Assembly (NCBI GenBank): GCA_019321725.1
Contig: CM033110.1
Span: forward strand, 11,711,278-11,775,277
DNA: 64,000 nt
Reading direction: 5' to 3'
Origin: Paulownia fortunei
Lineage: Eukaryota > Streptophyta > Magnoliopsida > Lamiales > Paulowniaceae
Position numbers and translations under genes: made by a program. The notes beneath the pieces are model-generated. The model was not told the origin of the DNA. It saw only the letters and a list, made by a program, of their open reading frames with translations, and did not search any database. Within the stretch, counting starts at the first letter, position 1. Every line of letters begins with the position of its first letter. Below are positions 1 through 51,310 of this stretch, one piece after another.

Positions 1-215
1 GTATTTTTCTACAACACAACTCTACTAAAACTTAATTAACATATTTTCTGCCTCCATTAAATTGAGTGACTAAGTCATCACGCGAGAGATCACTATTTTC
101 AAACAGAATAACCGATTGTACTTTGTGAACAGATTGTGTGCTAGTTTTTACATAATTGTTTTTAAAGGTCTATTAAACCCCACTCTAAACCCTTTAATAC
201 CACTCAAGACCAATA
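1..215 (+). mobile_element. 3' tail of a SIRE-like LTR (copy A)
   Basis: This corresponds to 39912-40126, the end of a SIRE-like LTR that can be followed leftwards only in copy B. The last bases read CCAATA, where the related minus-strand LTR at 53200 ends in CCAACA. The remaining bases to 278 are the flank between that LTR and the Athila-like element. Confidence 0.6.
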
Positions 216-278
216 ATTACTATATGGGAGTCTTGAAATTAATAACAAGAAACTTTGTATGTTGATTTTTTAAGTTCT

Positions 279-1914
279 TGATGAACATTTAAAAGTGTAT
301 AACTAATTAGGATTTATATAATTATTTTTACTTTAAAATTATTATTAGAACTCCCAATTAAAGCATTTTTATGTTTTAGAAATAAAATGGGAAATCAACA
401 TAAAAAAATAAGATTAAAAAGTTTTATCTTCTTTTGTGCAGATTTAAGAAAAACTGGCGTAATTTTTAATTCCGTTATGATTTAGAGTTAATTCTTGAGG
501 CTATGGAATGATAAGTCATTCATCTACAAGTTCATGCATACTTTGGATTTCATACTAAATGTTTAAGGATCAAATAAGTTGTATTACAAATAGTTGTACA
601 AAATGTATCACCAAAAAAATTCAAATTAGAGTTAAGATCAATCCTGACCTATTTTATTATTTGGGTCATATCTCTTAAATTTGGATATGCTACACATAAG
701 AGATAGATAAACAAGTTTGTTGAAGAAAAGATGGTAAGAAAATATGTTAAAATAGCCAATAAACATGTTGCAATGCGCTGATGATGTTGAAGGACGGCTC
801 TTGAACATGATTTGATAATTTAATCATATCTCCCTCATCCGGCAGCCAAATTTGACAAATTATATAAGAAACAAATATCTACAAATTTTATTCTTTACCC
901 ATCATAAACATCTGGCTGTATCCTGATGGAAAATACAATTTAATTGGGTAGTTGAAAATTTAGAAGATTTGGTGTAACAACTTTCCAACTCTTGATAACT
1001 AGCATACCACTTGATTGTTTAACTCCTTCATTATATGTTTGGCCTCTAGCATACTTCAAGCACTATAAATAGGCCATGTATTAAGCCTATAAGAGTGGGG
1101 GGTAGAGGGTTTCTTTAGGGTAAGTTGTCTAGCAGTAATGTAAGTTTTATAGTAGTAGTGTTAGTTTTTTTTAGTAGTAATAGAAATGTATTCTCTAGTT
1201 TCTCTTCTATTTTTAGTCTTTCCTACTTTTATTATGTCTTTCTAAATTTTATTTTACTGAGGAAGATGGTGAACCTCTTGATGGAGGAAGAGGAATGGTT
1301 ATAGGGGTAGAAAATGCTTAAGTGTATTGTATTATTATTTTAATTTTTTATCTAAACCCTACTTATTTTGTAGTGGTTCTTGATTTATGTATCACTAGTG
1401 GCACATCAAATACTTAGGTTCATTTAGCTAGACGTTTGGTTTTACTACACCAACCGCTAACGTGAAACATTGATTTGTTGTAGACAAAGGTATGCATAAA
1501 TACTTGATCCCATAAATAAGTATTGGCGTTAAGAGATAATTTGTAAATAGTAAGACAATATCATGATTTCATTATTGCATGAGCCATTTGATAACATCTT
1601 CCCATTGGAATCTTCATTATATATGGATTCTATTAGTGGCAATTAAAAAAGGTAAAAAAAATAAATAATCATTTCTCTATCCAAAACTCAAGAGCAGATC
1701 TCTAATCCTCAATACTTTTATTATTTTGATTTTTTTAGTTATAACATACATTATTTTGTATACATATTCTAAATCACATAAAGCCCATCTTTGTATTTTT
1801 TTTTTAGAAATATAATCCTAAATTCATCAAATAACTTTCTTGTGGATCGACCTCGAACTCACGAGAAATTTATTTGACACAACCTCTTGGGTTTGCCACA
1901 TTAAAGTTGTAGCA
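279..1914 (+). repeat. Athila-like 5' LTR, copy A
   Basis: The LTR starts TGATGAACATTT, ends TTGTAGCA and is 1636 bp long. The five bases before it are GTTCT, the same target-site bases found on both sides of copy B. It is indistinguishable by eye from the LTR at 40190-41825, whereas the 3' LTR at 49661-51305 differs at roughly a tenth of sites. Confidence 0.9.
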
Positions 1915-1920
1915 AGTTTT

Positions 1921-1938
1921 TAGCGTCGTTGCCGAGGA
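1921..1938 (+). promoter_or_regulatory. Primer-binding site, tRNA-Asp type (copy A)
   Basis: The stretch TAGCGTCGTTGCCGAGGA six bases after the LTR resembles the complement of a plant tRNA-Asp 3' end (TGGCGCCGTTGCCGGGGA), the usual primer of Athila elements. The differences are mostly transitions, consistent with decay of methylated CpG sites. Confidence 0.75.
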
Positions 1939-2114
1939 AGGCAAGGTAAGTTTTTAAGTTTGTAAATATTTCTCCTTTGTAAGTATTATGTATTTATTTT
2001 ATTTATGATTATATGGTTATATGGTATCTGGGTCATAATTCTCGGCATTTAGTTAGAAATAATTCTGAAACTTTAATTAGAAATTTGTTTGAGTCACCTC
2101 CACACACTTCCACC

Positions 2115-2961
2115 ATGGCTGAAAATGAAAGTGTCCAGGATGAAACTAAAATCAATAGGTGCATACCATACGTTATTACTTACAACCTCATTGAAATTCT
2201 TCTCCTTCTTGTTTTATTTTTCCTCTCAATTCAAATAACTTTCAATTCAAGGCAGGTATGATCCCTTTACTTCCTAATTTCCATGATTTAAACTCTAAAA
2301 GCCCTTACTTATATCTAAAAAGAATTTGATGAAGTACGTGCCACTTTTGATGATCAAACTTGTACAAATGAAATTGTTAAGCTCAAATTATCTTATTTTT
2401 CTTTAAAAAGTAAAGAAAATCAAATATGTGTAAGAGAAAGAAGTTTGTGGCAATTGTGAACTTATGGGGCACTCCACCAATGAATGTCCAAACATTTCAG
2501 TACAAGCAAATTTCATGAACACATTCAGAAAACCTTTTCATTCTTCATATTCCGAAACTTACAATCCATAATGGAAAAATCATCCTAATTTCAGTTGACG
2601 AGATGATAATTGTGCCCAATCGCTATATTCACAAAAGCCACCAAACTTTTCTTCTTATCGAGCTCCACATATAAAATCCCTTGAGGAGACTTTGCAAGCA
2701 TTTATACATGAACAAATAAACATCAATAATCAAACTTCACAAGCCATCAATGAGATCAAAAATACACTTTCAACATTAACCGCCTCTTTGCGCACTCAGG
2801 AAAAAGGTAAGTTGCCAACTCAACCTCAACCTAATCTTTCCACTTCGTGTCATATTTCTTCTTCAGGCAAAAATCCAATCAAGGAGGCTAATTCTATCAC
2901 AACTCTTCGGAATGAAAAAATTGTTAATAAAACTATTCATCCCAAGGAAAAAAGTTTCTAA
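2115..2961 (+). pseudogene. Athila-like gag remnant (copy A)
   Basis: The likely start ATG at 2115 has a good context (CCACCATGG) and opens with MAENESVQDET. The frame stops at 2259. A second frame holds a textbook retroviral zinc knuckle, C-x2-C-x4-H-x4-C (CGNCELMGHSTNEC), at 2446-2487. A third frame, 2692-2961, is Gln/Asn/Ser-rich and carries the TTLRNEK-type motif typical of the end of Athila gag. The protein would package element RNA. It is far shorter than a usual Athila gag, with a large central loss between the N-terminus and the knuckle, and has several frame breaks, so it is non-functional. Confidence 0.75.
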
Positions 2962-2974
2962 TCCACCTTAAAAA

Positions 2975-3796
2975 ATGAAGAATGGAAATATTCTTGACGA
3001 CGAATGTATGTTTGAAGAAGATAAGTTTAAAAATGATGAAAAAGAAAAATATTTACCTCTAGCACCCTTTCCTCAAAGATTGCAACCAACTCAGAAGTTG
3101 AACTCAAATGCTGAAATCTTTGAAGTTTTTAAACAAGTCAAGATTAATATTCCATTGTTGGATACAATCAAGCAAGTTCCACCTTATGCCAAATTCTTGA
3201 AAGATTTGTGTACAATCAAAAGAAAACATTACGTACAAAAGAAGGTAATTTTAACTGAAAGTATTAGCTCAATCACTCAACAATTCACTCCACCCAAGTA
3301 CAAAGATCCAAGATGTCCAACCATTTCATGTACCCTAGAAAACATTAGAATAGAGCATGCTTTGCTTGATCATGGTGCTAGTGTAAATCTTCTACCTTTC
3401 TCAGTTTATAAACAGTTAGGTCTAAGAGAACTTAAAATAACTTCTGTTGTACTCCAACTAGCTGACCATTCGATTAAAGTTCCAAAAGGAATAGTAGAAG
3501 ATGTGTTGGTACAAATTGATAAGTTTTACTTTTTTGTGGATTTCTTTATTTTGGACATAGAGCCTGTTGCATATACACATACACAGATTTCAATCATTTT
3601 GAGTTATCCTTTTCTTGTAACTTCAAATGTTGTGATTAATTATCGGAATGGTATTTTGAAGTTATCTTTTAAAAATATGACTTTGGAACTAGATGTGGTT
3701 AATGTTTGTAAGCAACCTGCAGAAGATGTCGAAATACATAAAGTGGATTCAATCGAGAACTTGTTCATGGATACTTTACTATCATTAACTATTTAG
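2975..3796 (+). pseudogene. Athila-like aspartic protease domain (copy A)
   Basis: An open frame of 273 codons covers the gag-pol linker and the retroviral-type aspartic protease. The active-site motif is LLDHGASVNLLP at about residues 131-142 (family consensus D-x-GAS), followed by YKQLGL. A hydrophobic stretch ending in SIILSYPFL near residue 210 matches the C-terminal part of the fold. The enzyme would process the element's polyprotein. It is separated from gag and from reverse transcriptase by stops, so it can only be a piece of a former gag-pol frame. Copy B (42886-43707) differs at a few residues, including the last four. Confidence 0.8.
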
Positions 3797-4080
3797 ATTC
3801 TTTGGAGACTAGTTTTGAAAGTAAAAGTATTTGTAAAAAGACATACTCTAATACTCTCTCTGAATTTTTGCAGGTATAAGAAAAATATTTTTGAAAACCA
3901 AGATTTGAATAATTTTCATCATCAACAGTACAATATATTCCATCAAGTATTAAAACTCCAGTGATTGATTTGAATTCTTTGCCATTTGATTTAAAATACT
4001 TTTTCTTGGGTGAGAATTAGACTTTTCCAATAATAATTTCTTCCAAACTCAATTCATCCCATGAAAGTAAGTTGATCAAA

Positions 4081-5557
4081 ACTTTAAAAATCCACAAGAA
4101 TGCTTTAGGATGGACCATTGCTGATTGTAAATGTATTAGTCCTTTAATTTGCACACATAATATCTATTTAGAGGAAAATTCTAAACCTTCTATAGAGATG
4201 TAACGAAGGCTAAATCCTAATATGAAAGAAGTAGTGAGAAATGAAGTTATTAAAGTCTTAGAAAATGGAATCATTTATTCTCTTTCTGACAACAAATGGG
4301 TAAGCCCTACTCAAGTTGTACCTAAGAAATCTAGAGTCACTGTAGTCAAGAATGAGAATGATGAATTAATTCTAACTAGGACTATTACATTGACTATAGG
4401 AAACTCAACTCACTTACTAGAAAATATCATTTCCCATTACCCTTCATGGATCAAATCTTAGAAAGAGTTACAGGACATTAATTTCATTGCTTTTAAGATG
4501 GATATTTTGGGTATAATCAAATTGTAATGGTATTTGAAGATCAAGAGAAAATAAATTTTATATGTCCTTTTGGTACTTTTATATATCGAATGATACCTTT
4601 TGGATTATATAATGCACCAGCTACATTTCACAGATACATTCTTAGTATTTTTAGTGACATGGTTGAACCTTTTCTTGAAGTCTTTATAGATGATTTTTTT
4701 ATTTTTGATAATTCATTTGGTGATTGTTTGTCTAATTTAGAAAAGGTTTTGATCAAGGTGAAGAAAAGAACCTTGTACTCAATTGGGAAAAATATCACTT
4801 CATGGTAACAAGTAGTATTGTTCTTGGACACATTATTTCATCAAAAGATATTGAAGTAGATAAATCTAAAATCAAGTCAATTGCTAATTTGCCAATACCA
4901 AAGTCTGTGAAGGTAAAATCATTTTTAGGACATGCTGGTTTTTATAGAAGATTTATCAAAAACTTTAGTATAATATTTAAACCTTTGTGTAATCTTCTAA
5001 CAAAAGACTCTATATTTGAATGGATTGAAAATTGTGAAAATAATTTTGTTAAGCTTAAAAGCATGCTCTACTCTAATCATGCAACCTCCAGATTGGACTT
5101 TACCTTTTGAAATAATGTGTGATGCCAGTGACTATATTGTTGGACCTATCTTATGACAAAAAAAAAGATAAGAAACCATATGTTATTCACTATGCAAGTA
5201 AAACTTTAAATAGTGCTTAATTGAATAACTGAAAAATAATTACTTACTATAGTTTTTGCATTTGACAAATTTATATCTTATCTTATTGGCTCACCAGTTA
5301 TTGTTTTTAATAATCACGCAACTTTGAAATATCTTTTTTGTCAAAAAAAGATGTCAAACCAAGACTGATTAGGTGGATTCTCTTACTCCATGAATTCAAC
5401 ATTACGATTCGAGATAAGAAAAGAGTAGAGAATATGGTGGCTGATCATTTGCAAGACTTGTTTGTGATAACTTATTTCAAACCACACCCATTAATGACAC
5501 TTTCCATGATGAACAACTATTTAATATTTTTATTTTACCTTGGTTTGTTGATATTGT
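4081..5557 (+). pseudogene. Athila-like reverse transcriptase and RNase H (copy A, cut by gap)
   Basis: Frames in order give: ALGWTIAD and RRLNPNMKEVV (RT start), KWVSPTQVVPKK, then a frameshifted palm with FGTFIYRMIPFGLYNAPATF, and the catalytic box FIDDFFIF (family Y/F-x-DD) at about 4687. These are followed by the connection region with FLGHAGFYRRFI (4921-4956) and the RNase H region with FEIMCDASDY around 5107, and then [17 protein letters not shown]. At least four frame breaks or stops are present. The frame ends in the N run, so integrase cannot be seen in this copy. Confidence 0.85.
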
Positions 5558-5657
5558 NNNNNNNNNNNNNNNNNNNNNNNNNNNNNNNNNNNNNNNNNNN
5601 NNNNNNNNNNNNNNNNNNNNNNNNNNNNNNNNNNNNNNNNNNNNNNNNNNNNNNNNN
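5558..5657. other. Assembly gap of exactly 100 N
   Basis: This is a run of 100 unknown bases, a common placeholder for a scaffold join of unknown length. The sequence changes from an Athila-like element to a Ty1/copia element across it, so the order and distance of the two sides are not supported by sequence. Confidence 1.
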
Positions 5658-24164: not shown

Positions 24165-25075
24165 AAAACCTTCACTCAATTAGCGATATGAGCGCACAAG
24201 AGAGAAGATTTTCTAAGTCCCTCAACTAGCGCAATAAGATGAAAATTTTTTGAAGTTCCTCAACTAGTGGCATGAGGTGAAAATTTTCTAAGTCTCTCAA
24301 CTAGCAATGAGATGAAAATTTTCTAAGTCCTTCAATTAGCGCAATGAGGTGAAAATTTTCTAAGTCCTCCAACTAGCTCCATAGGTGCACAAGAGAGAAA
24401 ATTTTCTAAGTTCCTCAACTAGCACAATGATATGAAAATTTTCTAAATTCCTCAACTAGCGCAATGAGGTGAAAATTTTCTAAGTCCCTCAACTAGTACC
24501 ATGAGGTGAAATTTTTTTGAGTCTCTCAACTAGCGCCATGAGGTGAAAATTTTTTAAGTCCCTCAACTAGCGCAATAAGGTAAAAAGTTTTTAAGTCCCT
24601 CAACTAGCGCCATGAGGTGAAATTTTTTTGAAGTCACTCAATTAGCGCTATGAGCGCACAAGAGAGAAAATTTTCTAAGTCCTTCAACTAGCGCAATAAG
24701 GTGAAAAGTTTCAGACTTAACTAGCACAATAAGGTGAAAAGTTTTTAAGTCCCCCAACTAGCACCATGAGGTGAAAATTTTTTAAGTCACTCAATTAGCG
24801 CTATGAGTGCACAAAATAGAAAATTTTCTAAGTCCCTCAACTAGCGCAATGAGGTGGAAATTTTCTAAGTCTCTCAACTAGCGCCATGAGGTGAAAATTT
24901 TTTAAGTCTCTCAGCTAGCGCCATGAGGTGAAATTTTTTTTAAGTCTCTCAACTAACACCATGAGTGAAAATTTTCTAGGTCCCTCAACTAGAGCCATGA
25001 GTGAGCACACAAGGGAAAAAATATTTTAAGTTCCTCAACTAGCGCCTTGAGCAAACAAGGGAGAAAATTTTCTTT
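24165..25075. repeat. Minisatellite of about 37-bp units with longer variants
   Basis: Roughly 22-24 imperfect head-to-tail units share CCCTCAACTAGCGC-ATGAGGTGAAAATTTT. Most are about 37 bp. Some are about 10 bp longer because the middle reads GAGCGCACAAGAGAGAAAATTTTCT. The long form recurs at about 24185, 24385, 24650, 24805, 25000 and 25045, hinting at a higher-order pattern. The array sits just upstream of a polypurine tract and LTR, where Tat/Retand/Ogre-type elements carry 3' tandem repeats. Confidence 0.9.
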
Positions 25076-27131: not shown

Positions 27132-30130
27132 CGATGGAGATGATCAAGATAATGATGATGACCACAATGGAACAACAATTTTAACTATATAACAAAGCAC
27201 TACATAATAGCCAACTCCAACAATATAGGAACTAACAAGCACCAAGCCTATATCAGAGGAGTCCAGGAGGCCCAACTAGCTGGAAAAAGTCATGCAATGA
27301 AGGACATTCAAGAGCAAAAAAGAGCAACACAATAGAGAAAATTTGCGGTGTAGAGAAAATCACTAAAGAACAGGAAAGAGAGAAAGCAGTAGAGAAATTT
27401 ATACAAGAAATTACATAGGAATAAATCTCTCAACTATCAATCGAGGCAAAAAGAAAGACAAGTACTTCAGCTCAGGCGACTGAAAAGATTGAAGAAGATG
27501 AAGAAAAACCAAATATAGAAAACACAGAGTATGAACTTGAAGGTGTTGGAATCATCAAGACATGGATGCAATAAATCAGTTTACCACAAGAGACAATAGC
27601 CTTACAACTCACTCAATAATGACTATGATCAAGGACTTCAAGGATAAAGTAAGACTTGGTCACATATTGCTTATAGATGTAGCTTAATGAATACTAGGCA
27701 CCATCTCAACTCAACTGAAGGAAATCCAACTCAACAACAAGTATTCAAGAGACCATCATAAAATAGATTACTCAAGCTAACAAAAATCAACAAAGCCTAA
27801 TACATGAATAAAATATCAAGACTATAGGTTCACTACATTGGAGCAAGGAGTACAACATATGATATCATAACTCCTGGAAATACTCGATTACATCAATAAA
27901 CCCGCCTTATTGTCCCAATATGCTAAAAAATGAAAGGAGGAGAACAAATAAAGAGACTTTTGATAAGTGCATATTTTGATATATTTTTGTATCAAATTCT
28001 TTATACTTTATTTGCTTTATTCTTTTTAATATTATAGTTTTATTAATATTTTGTGTTAGGGAATCAACGAACAAAAAGAGATCAAAAAAAACCAAAATAA
28101 AATCGAAGAAGACAACACATTTTGTGAGCAAGTTGGGAATATTTTATTGGATCAAATAAGTATCATAATTAGAATAAAAGGGCCATTTTTACATAAGTCC
28201 ATCATGTGTATATCAAAATATATGCAAGAAATCATATGGACTTTGCAACTGATTATTGGGCTTACATTAAATTCAAAATAAGCATGTTTCTAAACTTGTA
28301 CAATTTTTGTATTTTATGCATAACTCTATGTTCAAAAGTCCTATGGACCTAAATCTTACTTTATTTGAAATCTAAGAAATAGAACTACAACTTTGTTGTT
28401 GGAAGCTCAACCCAATTCATCCTTGATTATAGCATAAAATTCGTCCAATATGTGTATTGGAAGGAATCTATCTATGCTGACATATCTCTTTAAATCAAGC
28501 ATAACTTTCTCCCTAGTAGTTGGAATTAGTTATTCAAGTTGGAAAATGAAGCGGACAGATAAATATACAACCTTCATATTGATCACTAATTCAAAATCAG
28601 CACATTTGAAGTTAATTTGGAGTGCATTTGGAGTGAAATTGGAGATTCTAATTTAGACTATAAATAAGGGCTCTTGGATGGCATTCAACACAACAAAAAC
28701 CTTTAGAGGGGAAAAGAAAGCTTTATTGTTGTTATTTCTTTAGGCTAAGTTTTCTCGTAGTAATGTAAGTTTTCTAGAAGTAATAGAAATGTATTCTCTA
28801 GTTTCTCTTCTATTTTTAGTCTTTTCTATTTTCATTATGTCTTTCTAAAATTTATTTAGTTGAAGAAAAAAGGTGAACCTTTTTATGCAGGAAGATGAAC
28901 TGTTACAAAGGTGCATAATGTCCACGTGTGTTATATTATTGTTTTAATTTTTGATTGAAACCCCCCTGTTTTGGTGATTTTTTATTTATTTATCACTAAT
29001 GGCATAACAAATACTTGGGTTCATTTATCTTATCGTATGGTTTTACTCTATTGACTGCTAACGTGAAACCTTGATTTGTTATAGACAAAGGTGTGCATAA
29101 ATACTTAATCCCATAAATAAGTGTTGGCATTAAAACTATTCTTGTTTAGTGTCAACTCTTGATTTTTGTATCACCAATGGCTCAACAAATACTTGGGTTC
29201 ATTTAGCTTATTGTATGGTTCTACTCCACCGACTGCTAATATGAAACCTTGATTTATTGTAGACAAAGGTGTGCATCTTATAAATAAGTATGGTGTTAAG
29301 AGATAATTTGCATATAGTAAGACAATATCATGATTACCTTAATGCATGAGATATTTGATAACATATTCCCATTAGAACCTGCATTATGTATGAATTCCAA
29401 AAGTAGCATTTAGAAAAGATAAAAAGAATAAATAATTGTTCATCTATCCAAAATTTAAAATTGGATTCCTAATCCTCAATACTTTTATTACTTTTATTTC
29501 TTAGTTATAACATATTTTTTTCTTTATAATCTAAACCACATTCATCCCAACTTTTAAAAAATATAAACTCGAAAACTTTAAACAACTTTCCTATAAATCG
29601 ATCTTAGACTCCCGAGAAATATATCACTTAACACAACATGCATTTGTGTTTACAATCTTAAATATGTAGCAACTTTACCCCACATCATCCATTAAAAAAC
29701 TTAAAGATTACAAAAGACAACAACAAGAAGAAAGAAGAGAATAATAATAATAAGAAGAAGAAGAATAAGATACTAAAAAGGAGCAGAAAGGAGCAGTTGA
29801 TAAGGAAGTCGCCACCTAGACCTCCACCATCCCTAGGAAGATATGGTATGAAGGGTTGGATGAATATAAGTAATCACACAAAAGTTTTTGAAAATAGAGA
29901 AAAGAGTAGAGGAGATAACTTCCACAATATAAAGAAGACAAACTTCTAAAATAAAATATGGAAATAGAGTAGAAGAGATAACCTTCAGATGAGAGAAGAA
30001 GAGAGGCTCCTAGAGAAATAGAAAACTAAAAATGAAGTAGGTCATAGTTTCACTTATAAGTATTTGATTGTAAGTTTTTGTTTTACTTTGTTATTCTTAA
30101 GAGTTTTATTATCGTCAAAAAGGGGAAAAT
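27132..30130 (+). pseudogene. SIRE-like 3' ORF and 3' UTR, interrupted by a solo LTR
   Basis: Text on both sides of the solo LTR (27961-29671) is acidic/basic and coiled-coil-like: KEQEREKAVEKFIQEIT, ATEKIEEDEEKPNIENTEYE (27480-27545), then KKLKDYKRQQQEERRE and a Pro-rich PPRPPPSLGRYG (about 29810-29845). The region ends in the polypurine tract AAAAAGGGGAAAATT (30116-30130) immediately before a SIRE-like LTR, as expected for the extra 3' ORF of SIRE/Maximus elements. An AAG/AAT-repeat tract lies at 29730-29770. Several stops are present. Function is inferred from position only. Confidence 0.5.
27961..29671 (+). repeat. Solo Athila-type LTR with target duplication ACTTT
   Basis: It starts TGATAAGTGCATATTTTG and ends ATATGTAGCA. 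It is flanked by ACTTT on both sides (27956-27960 and 29672-29676). Its 3' half aligns with the Athila-like LTRs of this window (for example GAAATGTATTCTCTAGTTTC, 28787), while its 5' third differs. It is 1711 bp long, partly because an internal block of about 150 bp is duplicated (about 28975-29131 and 29153-29299). No internal element sequence remains, which marks LTR-LTR recombination. Confidence 0.92.
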
Positions 30131-38914: not shown

Positions 38915-40189
38915 TTCTGTTTATTAGGAAAATAATTATAAGAGCTATTTTCATAACAAAGGAATTAAACTGACCAGAGCAAAGCAGTGGAAATTGACTA
39001 ACCAAAGTTGAGAAGCTAAGATTAGCTAAGTAGAATAGAAAAGAGTAAAGCTGTTTGAATCAACTAAAGGGAAGTAAGAACAATAACAAAATAGAAAAGT
39101 GAAAAAATCTTCAAGGACAAGAAGTATAATCAAGGACCAAATATAAGATTAGTTGAGCTAAAATCTTTAGTGGAGTGAAGATTAGTGAGTTTTTTAGTTG
39201 CATAATTCACAACTATCATTTCGCAATGAAGAGTGTCACTAGAATCTAAAGAAAAATGATTTTAGGTAATGAATTCTATTATTTTACATACTACCATGGC
39301 CTGAAAAAAGGAGAAGTGTGCAAAAAGAGACAGAACTTGGATAAAAGACTATTGGCAAATTCTTATGAAGGCTAAAAGTAATAGTTGAAAAGTAGAGAAG
39401 AATAGAGAAGTGATAAATGATACAAGTTATACACGTGAGAAAATTTATGAGCACATAAAGAAAAAGTTCTAAAGTCATATAGAAGCTAATATTAATGGTT
39501 TGAGCTTTATTGGCTAGCTAATTGAATCTCTGGAAAGTACTTTGTATCTAAAGGAGTATGTGTTGATCCTTGTGTAGGATAACACTCGAGTCGACCTTTA
39601 TGTAGAGTGACTCTACCAGCAGTGCTAATAAGATCTTGTGTAGATTGATTAAGAAGGAGTTGGGAGCTATAGTTTGTGCAATGAAGCTGATTTTACTAAC
39701 CATAGGACTTCTATAAAAGTATGAGAATTTTCTAGTAGATTTATCTAGGAATTGGAGAATAGTAGACGTAGTATCACACTACCATCGAACTATTATAAAA
39801 AATACTTTTGCCATTACTTTTACAGCACTTTAATTCTGTCATTGTATTTAGCTTATTATTGCATCATAATTATTCCAAAAACTAGTAACCTATTCAACTT
39901 AGCTTTAAATCGTATTTTTCTACAACACAACTCTACTAAAACTTAATTAACATATTTTCTGCCTCCATTAAATTGAGTGACTAAGTCATCACGCGAGAGA
40001 TCACTATTTTCAAACAGAATAACCGATTGTACTTTGTGAACAGATTGTGTGCTAGTTTTTACATAATTGTTTTTAAAGGTCTATTAAACCCCACTCTAAA
40101 CCCTTTAATACCACTCAAGACCAATAATTACTATATGGGAGTCTTGAAATTAATAACAAGAAACTTTGTATGTTGATTTTTTAAGTTCT

Positions 40190-41825
40190 TGATGAACATT
40201 TAAAAGTGTATAACTAATTAGGATTTATATAATTATTTTTACTTTAAAATTATTATTAGAACTCCCAATTAAAGCATTTTTATGTTTTAGAAATAAAATG
40301 GGAAATCAACATAAAAAAATAAGATTAAAAAGTTTTATCTTCTTTTGTGCAGATTTAAGAAAAACTGGCGTAATTTTTAATTCCGTTATGATTTAGAGTT
40401 AATTCTTGAGGCTATGGAATGATAAGTCATTCATCTACAAGTTCATGCATACTTTGGATTTCATACTAAATGTTTAAGGATCAAATAAGTTGTATTACAA
40501 ATAGTTGTACAAAATGTATCACCAAAAAAATTCAAATTAGAGTTAAGATCAATCCTGACCTATTTTATTATTTGGGTCATATCTCTTAAATTTGGATATG
40601 CTACACATAAGAGATAGATAAACAAGTTTGTTGAAGAAAAGATGGTAAGAAAATATGTTAAAATAGCCAATAAACATGTTGCAATGCGCTGATGATGTTG
40701 AAGGACGGCTCTTGAACATGATTTGATAATTTAATCATATCTCCCTCATCCGGCAGCCAAATTTGACAAATTATATAAGAAACAAATATCTACAAATTTT
40801 ATTCTTTACCCATCATAAACATCTGGCTGTATCCTGATGGAAAATACAATTTAATTGGGTAGTTGAAAATTTAGAAGATTTGGTGTAACAACTTTCCAAC
40901 TCTTGATAACTAGCATACCACTTGATTGTTTAACTCCTTCATTATATGTTTGGCCTCTAGCATACTTCAAGCACTATAAATAGGCCATGTATTAAGCCTA
41001 TAAGAGTGGGGGGTAGAGGGTTTCTTTAGGGTAAGTTGTCTAGCAGTAATGTAAGTTTTATAGTAGTAGTGTTAGTTTTTTTTAGTAGTAATAGAAATGT
41101 ATTCTCTAGTTTCTCTTCTATTTTTAGTCTTTCCTACTTTTATTATGTCTTTCTAAATTTTATTTTACTGAGGAAGATGGTGAACCTCTTGATGGAGGAA
41201 GAGGAATGGTTATAGGGGTAGAAAATGCTTAAGTGTATTGTATTATTATTTTAATTTTTTATCTAAACCCTACTTATTTTGTAGTGGTTCTTGATTTATG
41301 TATCACTAGTGGCACATCAAATACTTAGGTTCATTTAGCTAGACGTTTGGTTTTACTACACCAACCGCTAACGTGAAACATTGATTTGTTGTAGACAAAG
41401 GTATGCATAAATACTTGATCCCATAAATAAGTATTGGCGTTAAGAGATAATTTGTAAATAGTAAGACAATATCATGATTTCATTATTGCATGAGCCATTT
41501 GATAACATCTTCCCATTGGAATCTTCATTATATATGGATTCTATTAGTGGCAATTAAAAAAGGTAAAAAAAATAAATAATCATTTCTCTATCCAAAACTC
41601 AAGAGCAGATCTCTAATCCTCAATACTTTTATTATTTTGATTTTTTTAGTTATAACATACATTATTTTGTATACATATTCTAAATCACATAAAGCCCATC
41701 TTTGTATTTTTTTTTTAGAAATATAATCCTAAATTCATCAAATAACTTTCTTGTGGATCGACCTCGAACTCACGAGAAATTTATTTGACACAACCTCTTG
41801 GGTTTGCCACATTAAAGTTGTAGCA
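40190..41825 (+). repeat. Athila-like 5' LTR (copy B)
   Basis: 1636 bp. It differs from the 3' LTR at roughly a tenth of positions in the stretches I compared (first 350 bp) and by several small indels. This makes the insertion old, in the range of millions of years under usual plant LTR rates. Confidence 0.93.
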
Positions 41826-41831
41826 AGTTTT

Positions 41832-41849
41832 TAGCGTCGTTGCCGAGGA
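41832..41849 (+). promoter_or_regulatory. Primer-binding site, tRNA-Asp type (copy B)
   Basis: TAGCGTCGTTGCCGAGGA, identical to 1921-1938, six bases after the 5' LTR; it resembles the tRNA-Asp 3' end complement. Confidence 0.75.
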
Positions 41850-42025
41850 AGGCAAGGTAAGTTTTTAAGTTTGTAAATATTTCTCCTTTGTAAGTATTAT
41901 GTATTTATTTTATTTATGATTATATGGTTATATGGTATCTGGGTCATAATTCTCGGCATTTAGTTAGAAATAATTCTGAAACTTTAATTAGAAATTTGTT
42001 TGAGTCACCTCCACACACTTCCACC

Positions 42026-42872
42026 ATGGCTGAAAATGAAAGTGTCCAGGATGAAACTAAAATCAATAGGTGCATACCATACGTTATTACTTACAACCTC
42101 ATTGAAATTCTTCTCCTTCTTGTTTTATTTTTCCTCTCAATTCAAATAACTTTCAATTCAAGGCAGGTATGATCCCTTTACTTCCTAATTTCCATGATTT
42201 AAACTCTAAAAGCCCTTACTTATATCTAAAAAGAATTTGATGAAGTACGTGCCACTTTTGATGATCAAACTTGTACAAATGAAATTGTTAAGCTCAAATT
42301 ATCTTATTTTTCTTTAAAAAGTAAAGAAAATCAAATATGTGTAAGAGAAAGAAGTTTGTGGCAATTGTGAACTTATGGGGCACTCCACCAATGAATGTCC
42401 AAACATTTCAGTACAAGCAAATTTCATGAACACATTCAGAAAACCTTTTCATTCTTCATATTCCGAAACTTACAATCCATAATGGAAAAATCATCCTAAT
42501 TTCAGTTGACGAGATGATAATTGTGCCCAATCGCTATATTCACAAAAGCCACCAAACTTTTCTTCTTATCGAGCTCCACATATAAAATCCCTTGAGGAGA
42601 CTTTGCAAGCATTTATACATGAACAAACAAACATCAATAATCAAACTTCACAAGCCATCAATGAGATCAAAAATACACTTTCAACATTAACCGCCTCTTT
42701 GCGCACTCAGGAAAAAGGTAAGTTGCCAACTCAACCTCAACCTAATCTTTCCACTTCGTGTCATATTTCTTCTTCAGGCAAAAATCCAATCAAGGAGGCT
42801 AATTCTATCACAACTCTTCGGAATGAAAAAATTGTTAATAAAACTATTCATCCCAAGGAAAAAAGTTTCTAA
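42026..42872 (+). pseudogene. Athila-like gag remnant (copy B)
   Basis: Same structure as in copy A: ATG at 42026 in CCACCATGG context, a hydrophobic frame ending at 42172, the zinc knuckle CGNCELMGHSTNEC at 42357-42398, and the Gln/Asn-rich end at 42603-42872. The only difference seen from copy A is one base at 42628 (C instead of T), changing Ile to Thr. Confidence 0.75.
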
Positions 42873-42885
42873 TCCACCTTAAAAA

Positions 42886-43707
42886 ATGAAGAATGGAAAT
42901 ATTCTTGACGACGAATGTATGTTTGAAGAAGATAAGTTTAAAAATGATGAAAAAGAAAAATATTTACCTCTAGCACCCTTTCCTCAAAGATTGCAACCAA
43001 CTCAGAAGTTGAACTCAAATGCTGAAATCTTTGAAGTTTTTAAACAAGTCAAGATTAATATTCCATTGTTGGATACAATCAAGCAAGTTCCACCTTATGC
43101 CAAATTCTTGAAAGATTTGTGTACAATCAAAAGAAAACATTACGTACAAAAGAAGGTATTTTTAACTGAAAGTATTAGCTCAATCACTCAACAATTCACT
43201 CCACCCAAGTACAAAGATCCAAGATGTCCAACCATTTCATGTACCCTAGAAAACATTAGAATAGAGCATGCTTTGCTTGATCATGGTGCTAGTGTAAATC
43301 TTCTACCTTTCTCAGTTTATAAACAGTTAGGTCTAAGAGAACTTAAAATAACTTCTGTTGTACTCCAACTAGCTGACCATTCGATTAAAGTTCCAAAAGG
43401 AATAGTAGAAGATGTGTTGGTACAAATTGATAAGTTTTACTTTTTTGTGGATTTCTTTATTTTGGACATAGAGCCTGTTGCATATACACATACACAGATT
43501 TCAATCATTTTGAGTTATCCTTTTCTTGTAACTTCAAATGTTGTGATTAATTATCGGAATGGTATTTTGAAGTTATCTTTTAAAAATATGACTTTGGAAC
43601 TAGATGTGGTTAATGTTTGTAAGCAACCTGCAGAAGATGTCGAAATACATAAAGTGGATTCAATCGAGAACTTGTTCACGGATACTTTACTACCACTAAC
43701 TCTTTAG
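42886..43707 (+). pseudogene. Athila-like aspartic protease domain (copy B)
   Basis: 273 codons with the active-site block LLDHGASVNLLP. Compared with copy A it has Phe for Ile after KKV (about residue 92) and a different end (TDTLLPLTL instead of MDTLLSLTI). The last changes begin the divergent tract that continues to about 44473. Confidence 0.8.
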
Positions 43708-43991
43708 ATTCTTTGGACACTAGTTTTGAAAGTGAAAGTATTTGTAAAAAGACACACTCTAATACTCTCTTTGAATTTTTGTAGGTATAAGAAAAATATT
43801 TTTGGAAACCAAGATTTGAAGAATTTTCATCATCAACAGTACAATATGTTCCATCAAGTATTAAATCTCCTGTGATTGATTTGAATTCTTTGTCATTTGA
43901 TTTAAAATACTCTTTCTTTGGTGAGAATTAGACTTTTCCAGTAATAATTTCTTCCAAACTTAATTCATCCCAAGAAAGTAAGTTGGTCAAA

Positions 43992-45485
43992 ACTCTAAAA
44001 ATGCACAAGAATGCTTTAGGATGGACCATTGCTGATAGTAAATGTATTAGTCCTTTAATTTGCACACATAATATCTATTTAGAGGAAAATGCTAAACCTT
44101 CTATAAAGATGTAACGAAGGCTAAATCCTAATATGAAAGAAGTAGTGAGAAATGAAGTTATTAAACTCTTAGAAAATGGAATCATTTATTCTATTTCTGA
44201 CAGCAAATGGGTAAGCCCTACTCAAGTTGTACCTAAAAAATCTAGAGTTACTGTAGTCAAGAATGAGAATGATGAATTAATTCTAACTAGGACTATTATA
44301 TTGACTATAGGAAACTCAACTCAGTTACTAGAAAATATCATTTCCCATTACCCTTCATGGATCAAATCTTAGAAAGAATTGCAGGACATTAATTTTACTG
44401 CTTCTAAAATGGATATTTTGGGTATAATCAAATTGTAATGGTACTTGAAGATTAAGAGAAAATAACTTTTACATGTCCTTTTGGTACTTTTATATATCGA
44501 ATGATACCTTTTGGATTATATAATGCACCAGCTACATTTCACAGATACATTCTTAGTATTTTTAGTGACATGGTTGAACCTTTTCTTGAAGTCTTTATAG
44601 ATGATTTTTTTATTTTTGATAATTCATTTGGTGATTGTTTGTCTAATTTAGAAAAGGTTTTGATCAAGGTGAAGAAAAGAACCTTGTACTCAATTGGGAA
44701 AAATATCACTTCATGGTAACAAGTAGTATTGTTCTTGGACACATTATTTCATCAAAAGATATTGAAGTAGATAAATCTAAAATCAAGTCAATTGCTAATT
44801 TGCCAATACCAAAGTCTGTGAAGGTAAAATCATTTTTAGGACATGCTGGTTTTTATAGAAGATTTATCAAAAACTTTAGTATAATATTTAAACCTTTGTG
44901 TAATCTTCTAACAAAAGACTCTATATTTGAATGGATTGAAAATTGTGAAAATAATTTTGTTAAGCTTAAAAGCATGCTCTACTCTAATCATGCAACCTCC
45001 AGATTGGACTTTACCTTTTGAAATAATGTGTGATGCCAGTGACTATATTGTTGGACCTATCTTATGACAAAAAAAAAGATAAGAAACCATATGTTATTCA
45101 CTATGCAAGTAAAACTTTAAATAGTGCTTAATTGAATAACTGAAAAATAATTACTTACTATAGTTTTTGCATTTGACAAATTTATATCTTATCTTATTGG
45201 CTCACCAGTTATTGTTTTTAATAATCACGCAACTTTGAAATATCTTTTTTGTCAAAAAAAGATGTCAAACCAAGACTGATTAGGTGGATTCTCTTACTCC
45301 ATGAATTCAACATTACGATTCGAGATAAGAAAAGAGTAGAGAATATGGTGGCTGATCATTTGCAAGACTTGTTTGTGATAACTTATTTCAAACCACACCC
45401 ATTAATGACACTTTCCATGATGAACAACTATTTAATATTTTTATTTTACCTTGGTTTGTTGATATTGTTAATTTTCTTGTTATAG
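43992..45485 (+). pseudogene. Athila-like reverse transcriptase and RNase H (copy B)
   Basis: Domain order as in copy A: ALGWTIAD, RRLNPNMKEVV, KWVSPTQVVPKK, MIPFGLYNAPATF (44501), FIDDFFIF (about 44598), FLGHAGFYRRFI (about 44832), RNase H with CDASDY, and [17 protein letters not shown]. Here the coding text continues past the point where copy A meets the N run, reaching a stop at 45483-45485 and then integrase. Multiple stops (for example after PSWIKS at 44370) make it non-functional. Confidence 0.87.
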
Positions 45486-45489
45486 AAAA

Positions 45490-46736
45490 GATGACATCGC
45501 ATTAGAACTCCCAAGATAAAATTAAGTTTTTGACTGAGGTGAAAAACTTTTATTGGGATGATCCATACCTATTCAAATATTGTTCTGGTCAAATCTTTCA
45601 AAGATGCATGCCAGACAATGAGATAGGTAATATTGTTAAATTTTATCATTCAGAAGCATGTGGTGGTCACTTTTCAGCAAAGAAAACCACTGCAAAGATC
45701 TTACAATGTGGATTTTATTGACCAAGACTTTTTAAAGATACTTACTTTTTGCAAAAGTTGTGAAAATTATCAAAAGTTAGGATCAATTTCAAAGCGAAAC
45801 ATAATGCCCCTACACCCTATCCTAATGATTGAAATATTTCACTGTTGGGGTATTGATTTCATGGGATCATTTTCATTATCATTTAGTTTTATTTACATAT
45901 TGGTCATCATAGATTATGTCTCAAAATGGATCCAGTCAATTCCATGTCGAAACAATGATCACAAAATAGTGATAAAATTTTTGAAAGAAATATTTTAAGT
46001 CGATTTAGAATTCCTCGATCCATTATTAGTGATGGGGGAAAATATTTTTGTAACAAAGTTTTTGGAACTTTAATAAGAAAATATGGAATCATACATAAAG
46101 TTGCAATCCTTATCACACTCGGACAATGGACAAGTTGAACTTGCAAATAGGGAGAGAAAATAAATTTTGAAAAAGACAGTTAACCCAAATTGTAAAGATT
46201 GGTTTCTTGGACTTACCAATACACTTTAGGCATATAGAAATGCTTTCAAAACATCATTAGGCATGTCTCCTTATAGGATAGTTTATGGAAAACAGTGTCA
46301 TTTACCTGTTGAACTTGAACCTAAAGCTTATTAGGCAGTCAAAATATTTAACTTCAAACTTAACAAAGCCTCAAAATTGCACAAATTGCAAATCATTGAA
46401 CTTCAAAAATTGAGAAATGATGCAGATGAGAATTCTAAAATTCATAAAGCAAGAATCAAATATGTTCATAATAATAAAATTTTAAGAAAAATATTTGAGA
46501 TTGGTCAAAAGGTTTTGCTTTATAATTTTTGAATGCATTTATTTTCTGGAAAATTGAGATCAAGGTGGAGTGGTTCTTTTTTTGTAAAAGAGATATATCC
46601 TTATGGGGCTATTGACATTGAGAATCCTAGAAATTGTAATGTATTCAAAGTAAATGGATAAAGACTCAAACCGTTTCTAGAGAATCAATTTTCACAAGAA
46701 GAAATTATTTTTCTTTCTAATTCTTATTATGATTAG
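45490..46736 (+). pseudogene. Athila-like integrase
   Basis: Frames in order: the HHCC zinc domain with FYHSEACGGHFSAKKTTAK and CKSCENYQKLG (45640-45780), the catalytic core with CWGIDFMGS (first Asp, about 45850) and VIIDYVSKWIQSIPCRNNDH, ISDGGKYFCNKVF (second Asp, about 46027), and HSDNGQVELANRE (Glu, about 46120-46150). The C-terminal region has [20 protein letters not shown] (46257-46310), RSRWSGSFFVKEIYPYGAI and a natural-looking end NSYYD with TAG at 46734-46736. All three catalytic acidic residues can be found, but in different frames. The enzyme would insert element cDNA into the genome. Confidence 0.88.
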
Positions 46737-47702
46737 TATGTGTATATATACTTATTTACTCTAATTTTATTTATTTTCTAGGCTTTTTTATTTTTTTCGA
46801 TTAAGTGGTGAATAACGATACTCCATGGTTATTAGAGTCGGACTTATTAGTTTCCTAAATAACTGAAATCACTATACAAATTTTCTCTCTCTTTCTCATT
46901 TTTTGTTCTTTTCAAAATGGATGACATTCTTCTAACTCTCAAGAAGTGATTTTCTTTTCTTCCTAAAAATATAATTTTAAAAATTTATAAAACTAGGATT
47001 GGAAGATTAAGGATCCTTATGCATAAGGGTATTCCTAGGATATACGATGGATAATTGAAGCAAAGGTAAGAGTAGCAAGTGAGTTTTCATGTGAGTCTTC
47101 AAACTTGCTTACTAGATACATGTCTGGTTTCGGTAAAAGTACATATTCAAAAAAAATGAAGGGTAAAAAAAATGAAAGCGTGTCACAAATGTACTTGATG
47201 AACTTACAACATAAAGTGTCGTTCCTTAAAAATGGTTTCTAAAAATTGAGAAGAAAAAATTCAATTCATTATGAATGGACTGAGTAAAGAGTCTTTAGAT
47301 GACATTATATTGACTCTTGATATGCATTCATGTGGATTAGTATATCATACAATTCTTGATTTAAAGAATCACTTTCAGGATAAATATGAGTGTTATAGTA
47401 TTGGGAATCTGACATTAAAAGATCCTATTTGCCAGTTTATAAGAAAATTAGATGGGAAGCATATCCTCGACCCATAATGAGTGTTTAAGGTGTTACTGGA
47501 CGTAAAATCAGAGGAAGACATGAGCCACAATCACAACTATATGTACATTCACATGTAAGTAAATAATTTTTAAATTTTGTATATCCTTATTTTCAATCTT
47601 TCTGACAAAAGAAAACAGACGTGCAATAAATACACTCTCTATTCACACCTCAATAAATAGCACCATACTCACTCCATTTTTGTACAATTCACTTTAAAAA
47701 AA
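46737..47702 (+). other. Region between integrase and the LOG-like sequence, with a small unassigned ORF
   Basis: Mostly AT-rich. At 47271-47477 a frame of 68 codons begins MNGLSKESLDDIILTLDMHS and contains LVYHTILDLKNHFQDKYE. It has a balanced composition and a stretch that could be two helices, but I recognise no family. It may be another captured fragment, an env-region remnant, or chance. Confidence 0.35.
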
Positions 47703-48340
47703 ATGGAAGTCTCTTCCACTAGCAAGTTCAACTATATTTGTGTCTTTTGTGGATCCAATCCAGCAAACAATTATGAGTTTATAGGGTCAGCCCATAACTA
47801 TGGTAGAATGTTTGCATAAAGAAAAATTTATTTAGTGTATGAGAGAGATAGTCTGGAGTTAATGGGAATGTTGCTACTTTTGCTCTTGTAGGAAGAGTCA
47901 AAGTTTTAGGAGTTGTCCCAAAACCTTTAAAAATACAGAATATCACAGGTATGACCATCGGAGGTGAGCTTAAAGTGTCACATATTCAGGATATAATGCC
48001 TAATATGTTAAACAATGAGGATGCATTCATCACTCTACCTAGTGATTTTGGTATACTAGATGAATTATTCCAAGTTGTCTCTTGGGTACAACTCAATATT
48101 TACCAGAAACCTGTAGGTATTCTTAATGTTAATGGTTTCTATGATGGTTTATTATTTTTTGTAAATTATGCTATGGAAAAAGTTTTTATTTCACCATCTA
48201 CGAGATAAATCCTCATTTCTGCTCCAACACCTGATCAATTGATTAATCAACTTCTAGCATATGTGCTAGAACCTAATCCAGCCTTGGCTATGTGGATTGG
48301 TCCAACAGGGACAATGGTCGAAAATGCAAAATCAATTTGA
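47703..48340 (+). pseudogene. LOG-like cytokinin riboside 5'-monophosphate phosphoribohydrolase, captured copy
   Basis: The family releases active cytokinin bases from their riboside monophosphates. This sequence follows the family from end to end without introns: NYICVFCGSNP (about residues 10-20), YLVYERDSLELMG where LVYGGGS-GLMG is usual, VLGVVPKPL, NITGMTIGGELKVS, MLNNEDAFITLP, then DELFQVVSWVQLNIYQKPVG and ILNVNGFYDGLLFFVNYAME. After these come ILISAPTPDQLINQLLAYV and the EPNPALA tail. The nucleotide-binding motif PGGxGTxxE reads PSDFGILDE (48038-48064), so key Gly and Thr are lost. There are two nonsense codons (TAA at 47817 and 48206, the second replacing an expected Gln) and one frameshift near 47867. 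It spans about 212 codons, near full family length, and lies inside the Athila-like element in its sense direction. Confidence 0.88.
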
Positions 48341-49652
48341 CTCTCAACCCATGAAATTTATCCTTAATGGTTTCAACTAATAGTTTGTATTTTGTATTGT
48401 TTCAGCTTTATTTTTTCAATAAGCCACATTTTAGGTGATATCTTTTAAAATCTATTTTCTTATATATTTTCAACATTGGGGACAATATCTCGAATAGGTT
48501 GGGGGAGGGGTTAGTTGATATCATGTCTTGTGTGTTCAATGCATATTCTTCTTGTTTAAAAACAATCAAGCTTATTTTCATTTGGGTCCATTAAAACCAT
48601 GAGTACGGTTGGCCAGAGGAAAGGATAATCTTTTGACACTTTTGAGACGCACCCCCATTTTTGTTTTTGCATAACATGGCATGTTTGTAAAGTTTTTAAT
48701 TGAAATCTTGTGAATTGTCAAAATATAATTGCAATCCTCTTTTTGTTAGAGTCCAAGGGTGCTATCTTTAAAAAAATATTAGTCTTGTGCACATCTTAAG
48801 CCTTGTGGAAAGATTGGTTGCAATACATATAACTGAAAATTCCGACCATGTTAAAGTGTTTTTTTTTTAATACTCACACATCTTTTATGAATAAGTGGAG
48901 AGTTTGAGAAAACAAGCATTCTGAACTTTAATTGATCATGTGAATTGGTTTCGTTGTAATTCAAGATACTTAATTATGTCTACCGTAAATGTGGAGAAAT
49001 AAATTGGATAAACCTGTATAGTTATCCATTTCTATTGAAATAATTCACTTTATAGCCAGTGATGTAAGTATAATTATAAATCCTTCTTTTGATCTTCTGT
49101 TATCATGTAAGTCACATTGTAAAACAAAAACAAAAATAAAAAAAAATGAAAAAAAAAGACAAAAAAAATCACCATTTCATTTTTAGGTTAATCAAAGAAA
49201 TTTTGAAGCATATTTTGGTAAGACAAATTAGTTATTTCAAATTTTGCGACTACCTATCTTATGCCCAATTCTAATTTGAATACTTGTCCTAAATCATTTA
49301 AGCCATTTCCCTGAGTGTTTTAACTGTTTTCCATCTCCATGAGTGAACATGTTACTAACTTATATGGCAAACACTTACCTGTGAGGATATGGCGTTGAGG
49401 CCTTTTCATGATTAATTTTGAAGTTATATTTATCTTGGTCTGTAGAATAAAAGATTAGCTTAGTGCACATACGCACAACATCCTTTGAAAAAAAAATCTC
49501 GATAGCATCTATTACCTCTGACAAATGATTGTTTGTGATTGTTAGATGATTTTACAAGTTTCTTTTAAATTCTGATCATCATGTCATGTTTCTTTTTATT
49601 TACATTGCATTTCATTATGCTATAATTACTATGGACTAGAAATAAGCTAGTT
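48341..49652 (+). other. Athila-type 3' untranslated region
   Basis: It holds the lineage-typical block ATTGGGGACAATATCTCG and GGTTGGGGGAGGGGTTAGTTG (48474-48524), followed by long AT-rich non-coding sequence to the polypurine tract. Several A-rich tracts (49125-49170) are present. No env frame is recognised. Confidence 0.7.
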
Positions 49653-49660
49653 AGGGGGTA
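49651..49660 (+). promoter_or_regulatory. Polypurine tract of the Athila-like element
   Basis: TTAGGGGGTA lies immediately before the 3' LTR, at the usual plus-strand priming position. Confidence 0.75.
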
Positions 49661-51305
49661 TGATGAGCATTTAAAAGTGTATAATTAATTAAGATTTATG
49701 TAATTATTTTTACTTTGAAATTATCATTAAAACTCCCAATTAAAGTATTTTTGTATTTTAGAAATAAAATGGGAAATCAACATAAAAAATGAGATTAAAA
49801 AGATTTATCTTCTTTTGTGCAGTTTTTAAAAAAACTGGCGTAATTTTTAATTCCGAAATAGTTTTGTGAGTTAATTCTTGAGGCTATGGAATGATAAGTC
49901 ATTCATCTATAAGTTCATGTAGACTCTGTATCCCATAATAAATATGTAATGTTCAAAGAAGTTAAATTACAAGTGGTTGTATAATATGGATCACCAAAAG
50001 AATTCAGATCACAGTTAAACATAATCCTGACCTATTTTACCAATTGGGTGATATCGCTTAAACCAAAATTATTTTTGGGCTAACATTTGGATATGTTATA
50101 CATAAGCGATAGATAAACAAGTTTGCTGAAGACAAGATGGTAAGTAAATATGTTAAAATGATCAATAAACATGCTGTAATGCGCTGTTGATGTTGAAGGA
50201 CAGCTCTTGAATATGATTCAATAATTTGACCATATCTCCCTTATCCGACAGCCAGATTTGACAAATAATATATGTAAATATATCAGCAGACAAAGGTATA
50301 CAACTTTTATTCTTTACCCATCATAAACATCTCGCTATATCCAACTTACCAACTCTTGACAACTAGCATACCACTTGATTGTTTAACTCCTCTATTATAT
50401 GTTTGACCTCTAGATACTTCAAACACTATAAATAGGCCATGTATTAAGCTTGTAAAAGTGGGGGAGTAGAGGGTTTCTTTAGGGTAAGTTATTTAGTAGT
50501 AATATAAGTTGTCTAGTAGTAATGTAAGTTTTTTAGTAGTAGTGTTAGTTTTTTTTAGTAATAATAGAAATGTATTCTCTAATTTCTCTTCTATTTTTAG
50601 TCTTTCCTACTTTTATTATGTCTTTCTAAATTTTATTTTGCTGAGACAAAAAGGTGAACCTCTTAATGGATGGAAGAAGAGGGACAGTTATAAGGATAGA
50701 AAATGCTTAAGTGTGTTGTATTATTATTTTAATTTTTTATCTAAACGCTACTTATTTTGTGGTGATTCTTGACTTATGTATCACTAGTGGCACATCAAAT
50801 ACTTAGGTTCATTGAGCTAGACGTTTGGTTTTACTACACCAACTGCTAACGTGAAACCTTGATTTGTTGCAGATATTTGTATGCATAAATACTTGATCCT
50901 ATAAACAAGTATTTGCGTTAAGTAATAATTTACAAATAAAAAGACAATATTATAATTTTCTTATTGCATAAGTTATTTGATAACATCTTTCCATTGGAGC
51001 CTTAATTATGTACGGATTCCAATGGTGGCAATTAAAAGAGCTAAAATAAATAAATAAACATTCCTCTATCCAAAACTCAAGAGCGGATCTCTAATTCTCA
51101 GTACTTTTATTACTTTGATTTTTTTTAGTTATAACATACATTATTTTTTTTATATATTCTAAATCACATAAAGCCCATCTTTATTTTTTGTAGAAATATA
51201 ATCCTGAATTCTTTAGACAACTTCCCTATGGATCACCTCAAACTCACGAAAAATTTATTACTTGACACAACCTATACTTGGGTTTGCAACCTTAAAATTG
51301 TAGCA
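49661..51305 (+). repeat. Athila-like 3' LTR
   Basis: 1645 bp, TGATGAGCATTT to TTGTAGCA. Compared with the 5' LTR it has a second copy of the AAGTTGTCTAGTAGTAATGTAAG module near 50487-50535 and many scattered substitutions. Followed by the target duplication GTTCT (51306-51310). Confidence 0.93.
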
Positions 51306-51310
51306 GTTCT

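Follow-up and report, generated by a model that had tools for sequence, protein, structure and literature searches.

The LONELY GUY (LOG) sequence in the window (the whole stretch of 64,000 nucleotides analysed here) is probably the dead copy of a standing gene of an Athila-like retrotransposon family, derived from LOG, maintained by selection and encoding a phosphoribohydrolase with an altered base preference that aids the element. A bolder version is offered tentatively, in which a plant LOG was domesticated by an LTR lineage, became a nucleotide hydrolase of new base specificity working for the cycle of the element, and was useful enough to be carried even by pol-less derivatives. If this version is true, the gene is a rare case of an extra ORF in a plant LTR element with evidence of a selected function. 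The element in the window has the following parts.

40185..40189, unstranded: left target-site duplication, GTTCT (sequence)
40190..51305, + strand: decayed Athila-like Ty3/gypsy LTR element, 11,116 bp (LTR alignment, TG...CA ends, 5-bp target-site duplication)
40190..41825, + strand: 5′ LTR (LTR alignment)
41832..41849, + strand: decayed primer binding site (comparison with sister copies)
42883..43707, + strand: protease part of gag-pol (PF13650, E 0.0025, below cut-off)
44115..45021, + strand: reverse transcriptase pieces (PF00078, E 1.9e-7 on 44456-44719)
45506..46138, + strand: integrase pieces, H2C2 and rve core (PF17921 and PF00665, below cut-off)
46912..47477, + strand, start approximate: ORF-X, an extra frame between integrase and LOG
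47651..47660, + strand: TATA-like CAATAAATAG upstream of the LOG start (sequence; putative promoter)
47703..~48350, + strand: intron-free LOG pseudogene (profile, structure-sequence and sister-protein matches)
49651..49660, + strand: polypurine-tract-like stretch before the 3′ LTR (sequence only)
49661..51305, + strand: 3′ LTR (LTR alignment)
51306..51310, unstranded: right target-site duplication, GTTCT (sequence)

Both LTRs start with TGATGA and end with GTAGCA. The original prediction of intact LTRs with a target duplication holds for the duplication, as GTTCT is found on both sides, and for the LTRs in outline only, since the pair differs by a K2P distance of 0.10-0.14 plus indels. This divergence marks the window copy as old; with the rice rate of 1.3e-8, which could overestimate the pace in this plant, its age comes to about 4-5.5 million years. 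Two of the five sister copies shown have TGGCGCCGTTGCCGGGGA as primer-binding stretch; it occurs as near variants in the other three, and is taken to be a tRNA-Asp-type site as in Athila. The gag, protease, reverse transcriptase, RNase H and integrase regions of the window element are recovered by tblastn from sister copies, with a reverse transcriptase coverage of 0.92. Two sisters, L028 and L030, carry pieces of all five domains above the Pfam cut-offs and in that order, including PF17921 and PF00665 in both and gag PF03732 with protease PF13650 in L030. The LTRs, the 5-bp duplication and the order gag, protease, reverse transcriptase, RNase H, integrase are those of a Ty3/gypsy element. An additional (archaeal-type) RNase H has neither a match nor room between the RNase H and integrase of L030. 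The Athila ORF-1 (PF03078) had no match in the frames scanned; the available text of PMC6317226 reports it in only 16% of Athila elements. The Athila type first proposed is therefore likely, as an assignment by sequence features rather than one proved by a tree.

ORF-X is open in some sister copies, for example in the region L028:4137-4898 (minus), and had no Pfam match when the window and sister frames were scanned. The CAATAAATAG motif is kept with small changes in the copies aligned. The 200 bp ahead of LOG (47503-47702) contain a TATA-like CAATAAATA and, in front of the ATG, a run of A whose length varies, and form a possible internal promoter. Elsewhere in the window, positions 1-5557 repeat 39912-45468 at 99.2% identity, with 278 bp of flank to the left of the 5′ LTR also matched, and this duplicate stops at a gap of 100 N (5558-5657); it probably stems from another haplotype or from duplication in the assembly, not from a second insertion. 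A second LTR-like stretch at 28746-29676, 74-82% identical to the LTRs of the LOG element, belongs to a related family, and 24204-25001 is a tandem array of about 21 copies of a 37-bp unit. No RNA family reached its gathering score within the 64-kb window.

The identity of the pseudogene is secure. Its open piece at 47852-48208 (118 aa) matches PF03641 with E 1.5e-19 (70.9 bits) and TIGR00730 with E 3.7e-19 (69.2 bits, under the cut-off of 96.35), and its best solved structure is 2a33/At2g37210 (AtLOG3), with E 9.7e-26. An open LOG protein from a sister copy aligns collinearly at 47703-47840, 47855-48289 and 48283-48348 with a joint E of 3.7e-78. The LOG-family similarity originally read from the letters is borne out, and the homologous frame runs on from the end first given, 48340, to about 48350. 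The gene is indeed sense-oriented between the integrase pieces (45506-46138) and the 3′ LTR (from 49661). Both nonsense codons of the prediction are present, at 47817-47819 and 48206-48208, and the PGGxGTxxE motif is ruined as described, reading PSDFGILDE; the catalytic Arg is replaced by Ile. The single frameshift becomes two, one between 47840 and 47855 and one between 48283 and 48289. As its frame is broken, the window copy should yield no working protein.

The assembly searched comprises 509 Mb in 1247 contigs. A DNA search with the window LOG gave at least 40 scored places, including the window, and 2306 loose, unconfirmed candidates; the other 39 of the 40 are 85-87% identical over nearly the full length. 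A search with a piece of AtLOG3 gave at least 150 scored places and 2466 loose candidates. These 150 are assigned to the element type on the strength of their 48-53% identity and their lack of introns, in contrast to the host LOGs. As 14 of them coincide with the 40, there are at least 176 distinct LOG places. Among the 150, which are the best-ranked and not a random sample, the match is free of stops in 125, and 85 of the 125 lie within open frames of 207 codons or more; stop-to-stop frames around LOG reach 275 codons.

Besides the window copy, the next 20 ranked places were read, each with 10 kb around it. All 21 copies were selected by their LOG match, so that their holding LOG says nothing and only the context counts; elements or pol-less derivatives devoid of LOG would escape this sampling. 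ORF-X lies upstream with a coverage of at least 0.9 in 18 of the 21, with 0.46 in two, and is absent in L011. Integrase coverage is at least 0.8 in 15 copies, and LTR-like DNA follows downstream, within the fetched stretch, in 17. LOG is a regular component of a large element family and not a private capture by the window element, as had been supposed: it occurs at 176 or more places, and with the same element neighbours in most of the copies read. That LOG entered the element afterwards by itself, bringing a target duplication of its own, is rejected because the same neighbours (ORF-X in 18, LTR-like DNA in 17) flank LOG in most of the 21 copies.

Four of these copies (L013, L016, L022 and L027) have a coverage of 0 for reverse transcriptase and RNase H and 0.11-0.19 for integrase; gag-protease is covered to 0.73-0.98 and LOG to 0.88-0.99. 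Together with two copies whose flanks were not read they form a LOG clade with support 99. The LTR pair could be measured in three of the four and gives a K2P distance of 0.16-0.18.

Better-preserved sister copies had been foreseen and do exist, both among the best-ranked 150 (125 without a stop in the match) and among the 40. A young clade with support 100 comprises 21 of the 40 LOGs. Eight of the 40 have no stop or indel over 217 codons, all of them in the young clade, and six of the eight keep the ATG as well. Three open copies score 115-129 bits with PF03641 (cut-off 27) and 164-172 bits with TIGR00730 (cut-off 96.35), thus passing the family profiles. LTR pairs were sought in nine sister copies, seven of them young. 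Four young copies gave K2P distances of 0.021 (L020 and L021), 0.048 (L029) and 0.056 (L028, part of the LTR); no pair was found in L023 or L030, and the short match seen in L025 does not represent one. The two older copies gave 0.142 (L026) and 0.171 (L017, over 269 bp). An AlphaFold model of an open LOG from a seven-row alignment has a pLDDT of 34.6.

Selection was measured with a codon model (own script, branch lengths fixed from the nucleotide tree) in which internal branches, representing the multiplying element, and tips, representing mostly decay after insertion, have separate omegas. For the 40 LOGs omega is 0.56 on internal branches and 1.13 on tips; equality of the two is rejected with p 0.0015 and an internal omega of 1 with p 0.0037, and masking codons near indels has little effect. 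The 21 copies alone give an internal omega of 0.51 (p 0.008). The five wrong frames give 1.09, 1.50, 0.75, 0.80 and 1.69, none significantly below 1 and the last significantly above it (p 0.033). As positive controls, integrase (13 copies) and RNase H (11 copies) have internal omegas of 0.24 and 0.34; tip omegas in these controls are above 1 (1.64 and 1.38), which means that the scale of the script may be biased and that only the contrast between internal branches and tips is safe. On the 13 integrase copies the signal for LOG is weaker, with an internal omega of 0.53 that differs from 1 at p 0.03 and from the tip omega at p 0.07. The internal omega of ORF-X, 0.60, does not differ from 1 (p 0.11). 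By internal omega, constraint is weaker on LOG than on pol. Purifying selection on LOG while the element multiplied is thus supported by the codon model.

Two further results speak against it. From singleton to shared changes in the 21 copies the nonsynonymous share was not lower (80:36 versus 53:30, p 0.54), and columns invariant in the LOG family were not less variable among the 40 copies. In 20 copies LOG shows a pairwise identity of 84-90% with 0-3% gaps; DNA at 48753-49602 shows 54-72% with 6-75% gaps. The non-coding stretch 47503-47702 between ORF-X and LOG, at 85-89% identity, is about as conserved as LOG, so conservation alone is no proof of coding.

These results bear on the view that LOG is a hitchhiker, captured once and amplified without any function, and open in young copies merely through their youth. 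The null result of the singleton comparison, the neutral tips (1.13), the restriction of open frames to the young clade and a constraint weaker than that on pol all agree with it. Against it stand an internal omega below 1 in the true frame only, a frame that stayed open on the line leading to the young clade despite a dS of about 0.17-0.31 between young-clade LOGs and those of the older subfamilies, and the presence of LOG in the pol-less derivatives; it is considered unlikely.

The kind of enzyme that was kept is suggested by the active site. In CgLOG the adenine/prenyl pocket is formed by Met96, His97, Lys100, Glu125 and Trp129, the last two supplied by the neighbouring molecule, and alanine changes at AMP-binding or catalytic residues, S19A excepted, almost abolish activity (PMC4979012). 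Met96, His97, Lys100 and Glu125 do not vary across the eight LOGs compared, which come from the host, Arabidopsis and bacteria. Among the 40 element LOGs (CgLOG numbering) Met96 is replaced by I in 39 and by V in one, His97 by Q in 38 (H in one, masked in one), Lys100 by M in 36 and Glu125 by Q in 37 (masked in two). Trp129 is kept in 34 and masked in four. The hydrolytic core is largely kept, with the catalytic Arg99 in 36 and Glu122 in 39 copies and an intact PGGxGTxxE in at least 10. Across 176 usable columns (the stretch of a splice-edge artefact in host L064 excluded) the element differs at 7 of the 45 columns invariant in non-element LOGs. Four of the five pocket columns are changed, versus 3 of the 40 other family-invariant columns (Fisher p 0.0011). 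The changed pocket with a kept core predicts an altered substrate, although a weak or dead enzyme likewise fits the pocket changes. The NCBIfam profile CtkRMPhLog gives the element LOGs 107-116 bits against a cut-off of 300; the AtLOG3 piece itself scores 133.5, so this cut-off does not discriminate plant LOGs.

The pocket also weakens the cytokinin activation that the original prediction named. In this alternative the element LOG would be a working cytokinin-riboside-5′-monophosphate phosphoribohydrolase, and locally produced cytokinin would keep cells meristematic and let the element reach the germ line. Family membership, purifying selection and the retention of PGGxGTxxE (at least 10 of 40), catalytic Arg (36), Glu (39) and Trp129 (34) are what such an enzyme would show. 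Against it, the cytokinin-type pocket is not preserved: four of its five residues, invariant in the eight other LOGs, are replaced in nearly all copies, and in CgLOG alanine changes at AMP-binding and catalytic residues other than S19A almost abolish activity (PMC4979012). Because of these four replacements canonical cytokinin activation is doubtful, and this alternative has a low probability.

An inactive or feeble LOG might instead interfere with the host LOGs, for instance through mixed dimers, in keeping with the supply of Glu125 and Trp129 by the neighbouring molecule in CgLOG (PMC4979012), or through small RNAs directed at their messages. The high copy number also favours interference. 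Protein identity to the three host LOGs with enough columns is only 48-49%, for which reason sequence-matched small RNAs are unlikely to reach them, and the kept Arg, Glu and phosphate loop oppose a simple loss of activity. This alternative is more doubtful still.

The origin of the gene was approached through the host LOGs. A pattern search for MHQRKAEM found 22 matches, 15 of them exact, two of the MHERKAEM type and five looser. The first two classes make up 17 host LOG-like places, of which five (L064-L068) were examined, with identity for four. Several of the 17 have identical letters and sit on contigs other than the 20 large ones; these are perhaps unplaced haplotype copies. L064, L065, L067 and L068 have several exons, with introns at shared points and splice-like GT/AG letters at several junctions of L065 and L067; L066 has one exon in the 2 kb examined. 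Six host junction columns are visible (all in L065, some each in L064, L067 and L068), and the element LOG is gapless across them. The absence of introns is thereby confirmed at these six junctions.

Against the three host LOGs that share at least 155 columns with it, the element LOG has 48-49% identity; the figures are 40% for L066 over 35 columns, 50% for AtLOG3 and 46% for AtLOG8. The same three host LOGs (L068 not included) are 64-75% identical among themselves. In the tree, whose alignment has the splice-edge artefact in the PGG motif of the L064 row, all plant LOGs used fall into one clade (support 100) with the element LOGs on a long branch next to it, and plant and element LOGs together are separated from two bacterial LOGs with support 97. 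Long-branch placement can mislead, and an old capture and fast change are inseparable in the tree. The identity of 46-50% where columns suffice and a branch outside the host and Arabidopsis LOGs make the capture look old. A bacterial origin is disfavoured: plant LOGs score 214 and 197 bits versus 162 for the best bacterial chain, and plant and element LOGs are joined against the bacterial ones at 97, with two outgroups only and a long branch. Ancient transduction of a plant LOG is likely. No recent source gene was seen among the host LOGs compared (four of the 17 places; best identity 49%). A recent, Bs1-like transduction of a host LOG transcript by the window element, as first proposed, accords with the intron loss and sense orientation and is very unlikely, being contradicted by the presence of LOG throughout a large family, by 48-49% identity to the compared host LOGs and by a position outside the plant LOG clade (support 100/97).

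The preferred reading, that of a selected standing gene, can be cast as a series of steps. Long ago an Athila-like element would have picked up a spliced plant LOG message, perhaps by template switching during reverse transcription, and LOG would have settled as a standing extra gene after gag-pol and ORF-X. The base/prenyl pocket would then have been altered, with the phosphate-binding loop and the catalytic Arg and Glu retained. The present protein would most likely be a nucleoside-5′-monophosphate phosphoribohydrolase with altered base specificity and not a standard cytokinin activator. It may benefit the element, for instance with a modified nucleotide as its target or through an effect on host nucleotide signalling. 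In vitro tests are within reach, since structures have been solved for this known enzyme family, some copies are open, a selection signal is present and the active site yields a precise prediction. For annotation there is a warning, as in such a genome many sequences of a retrotransposon may pass for 'LOG genes'.

Athila and Calypso elements carry an env-like or unassigned 3′ ORF. The present element resembles them as a large Ty3/gypsy element devoid of an extra RNase H, with an additional ORF between integrase and 3′ LTR; it is unlike them in that this ORF is an enzyme of a known family, 217 codons long from the ATG. A lineage scheme covering such elements is given in PMC6317226. Maize Bs1 has transduced parts of recognisable host genes. 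It shares with the present case host-derived sequence within an LTR element, whereas here the gene is old, full-length and common to a large family. Compared with plant LOGs (AtLOG3, AtLOG8, host L064-L068), the element LOG is full-length and collinear, with PGGxGTxxE and the catalytic Arg/Glu, and differs in having no introns, 46-50% identity (at least 155 columns) and four replaced pocket residues.

A YgdH (LOG-type) domain has been reported in LTR-retrotransposon consensuses of Citrus sinensis and C. clementina (PMC9289625, citing Steinbauerova et al. 2011), and in those of Populus trichocarpa when the n5 filter is omitted (PMC9289625). The likeness lies in a LOG-type domain occurring as a non-canonical domain of plant Gypsy-type elements; unlike the present work, the available text of that source has no analysis of anatomy, selection or active site. 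Orchid Ty3/gypsy elements carry an ORF for a 2-ODD m6A demethylase with activity in vitro, according to the same partial source (PMC9289625). They, too, are a multiplying Gypsy family with an additional ORF for a host-type enzyme, but they belong to an Ogre/Tat-like lineage and carry a different enzyme, one with activity shown in vitro. The function of extra ORFs is left open in the available part of PMC6317226, in which a limit of 250 codons was used. At 217 codons from the ATG the element LOG is near this limit, so that many copies could be missed by such a survey, and some of its stop-to-stop frames (up to 275 codons) would pass. The words LOG, cytokinin and YgdH are absent from the main text of PMC7264820, in the part available, which names Bs1. 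None of the other matches listed in the open-licence literature dealt with LOG genes of LTR elements. Thus, a LOG-type domain in plant LTR elements is already known and the evidence for its function is new, consisting of an intron-free, full-length enzyme ORF, signs of selection, a changed pocket and presence in derivatives devoid of most of pol.
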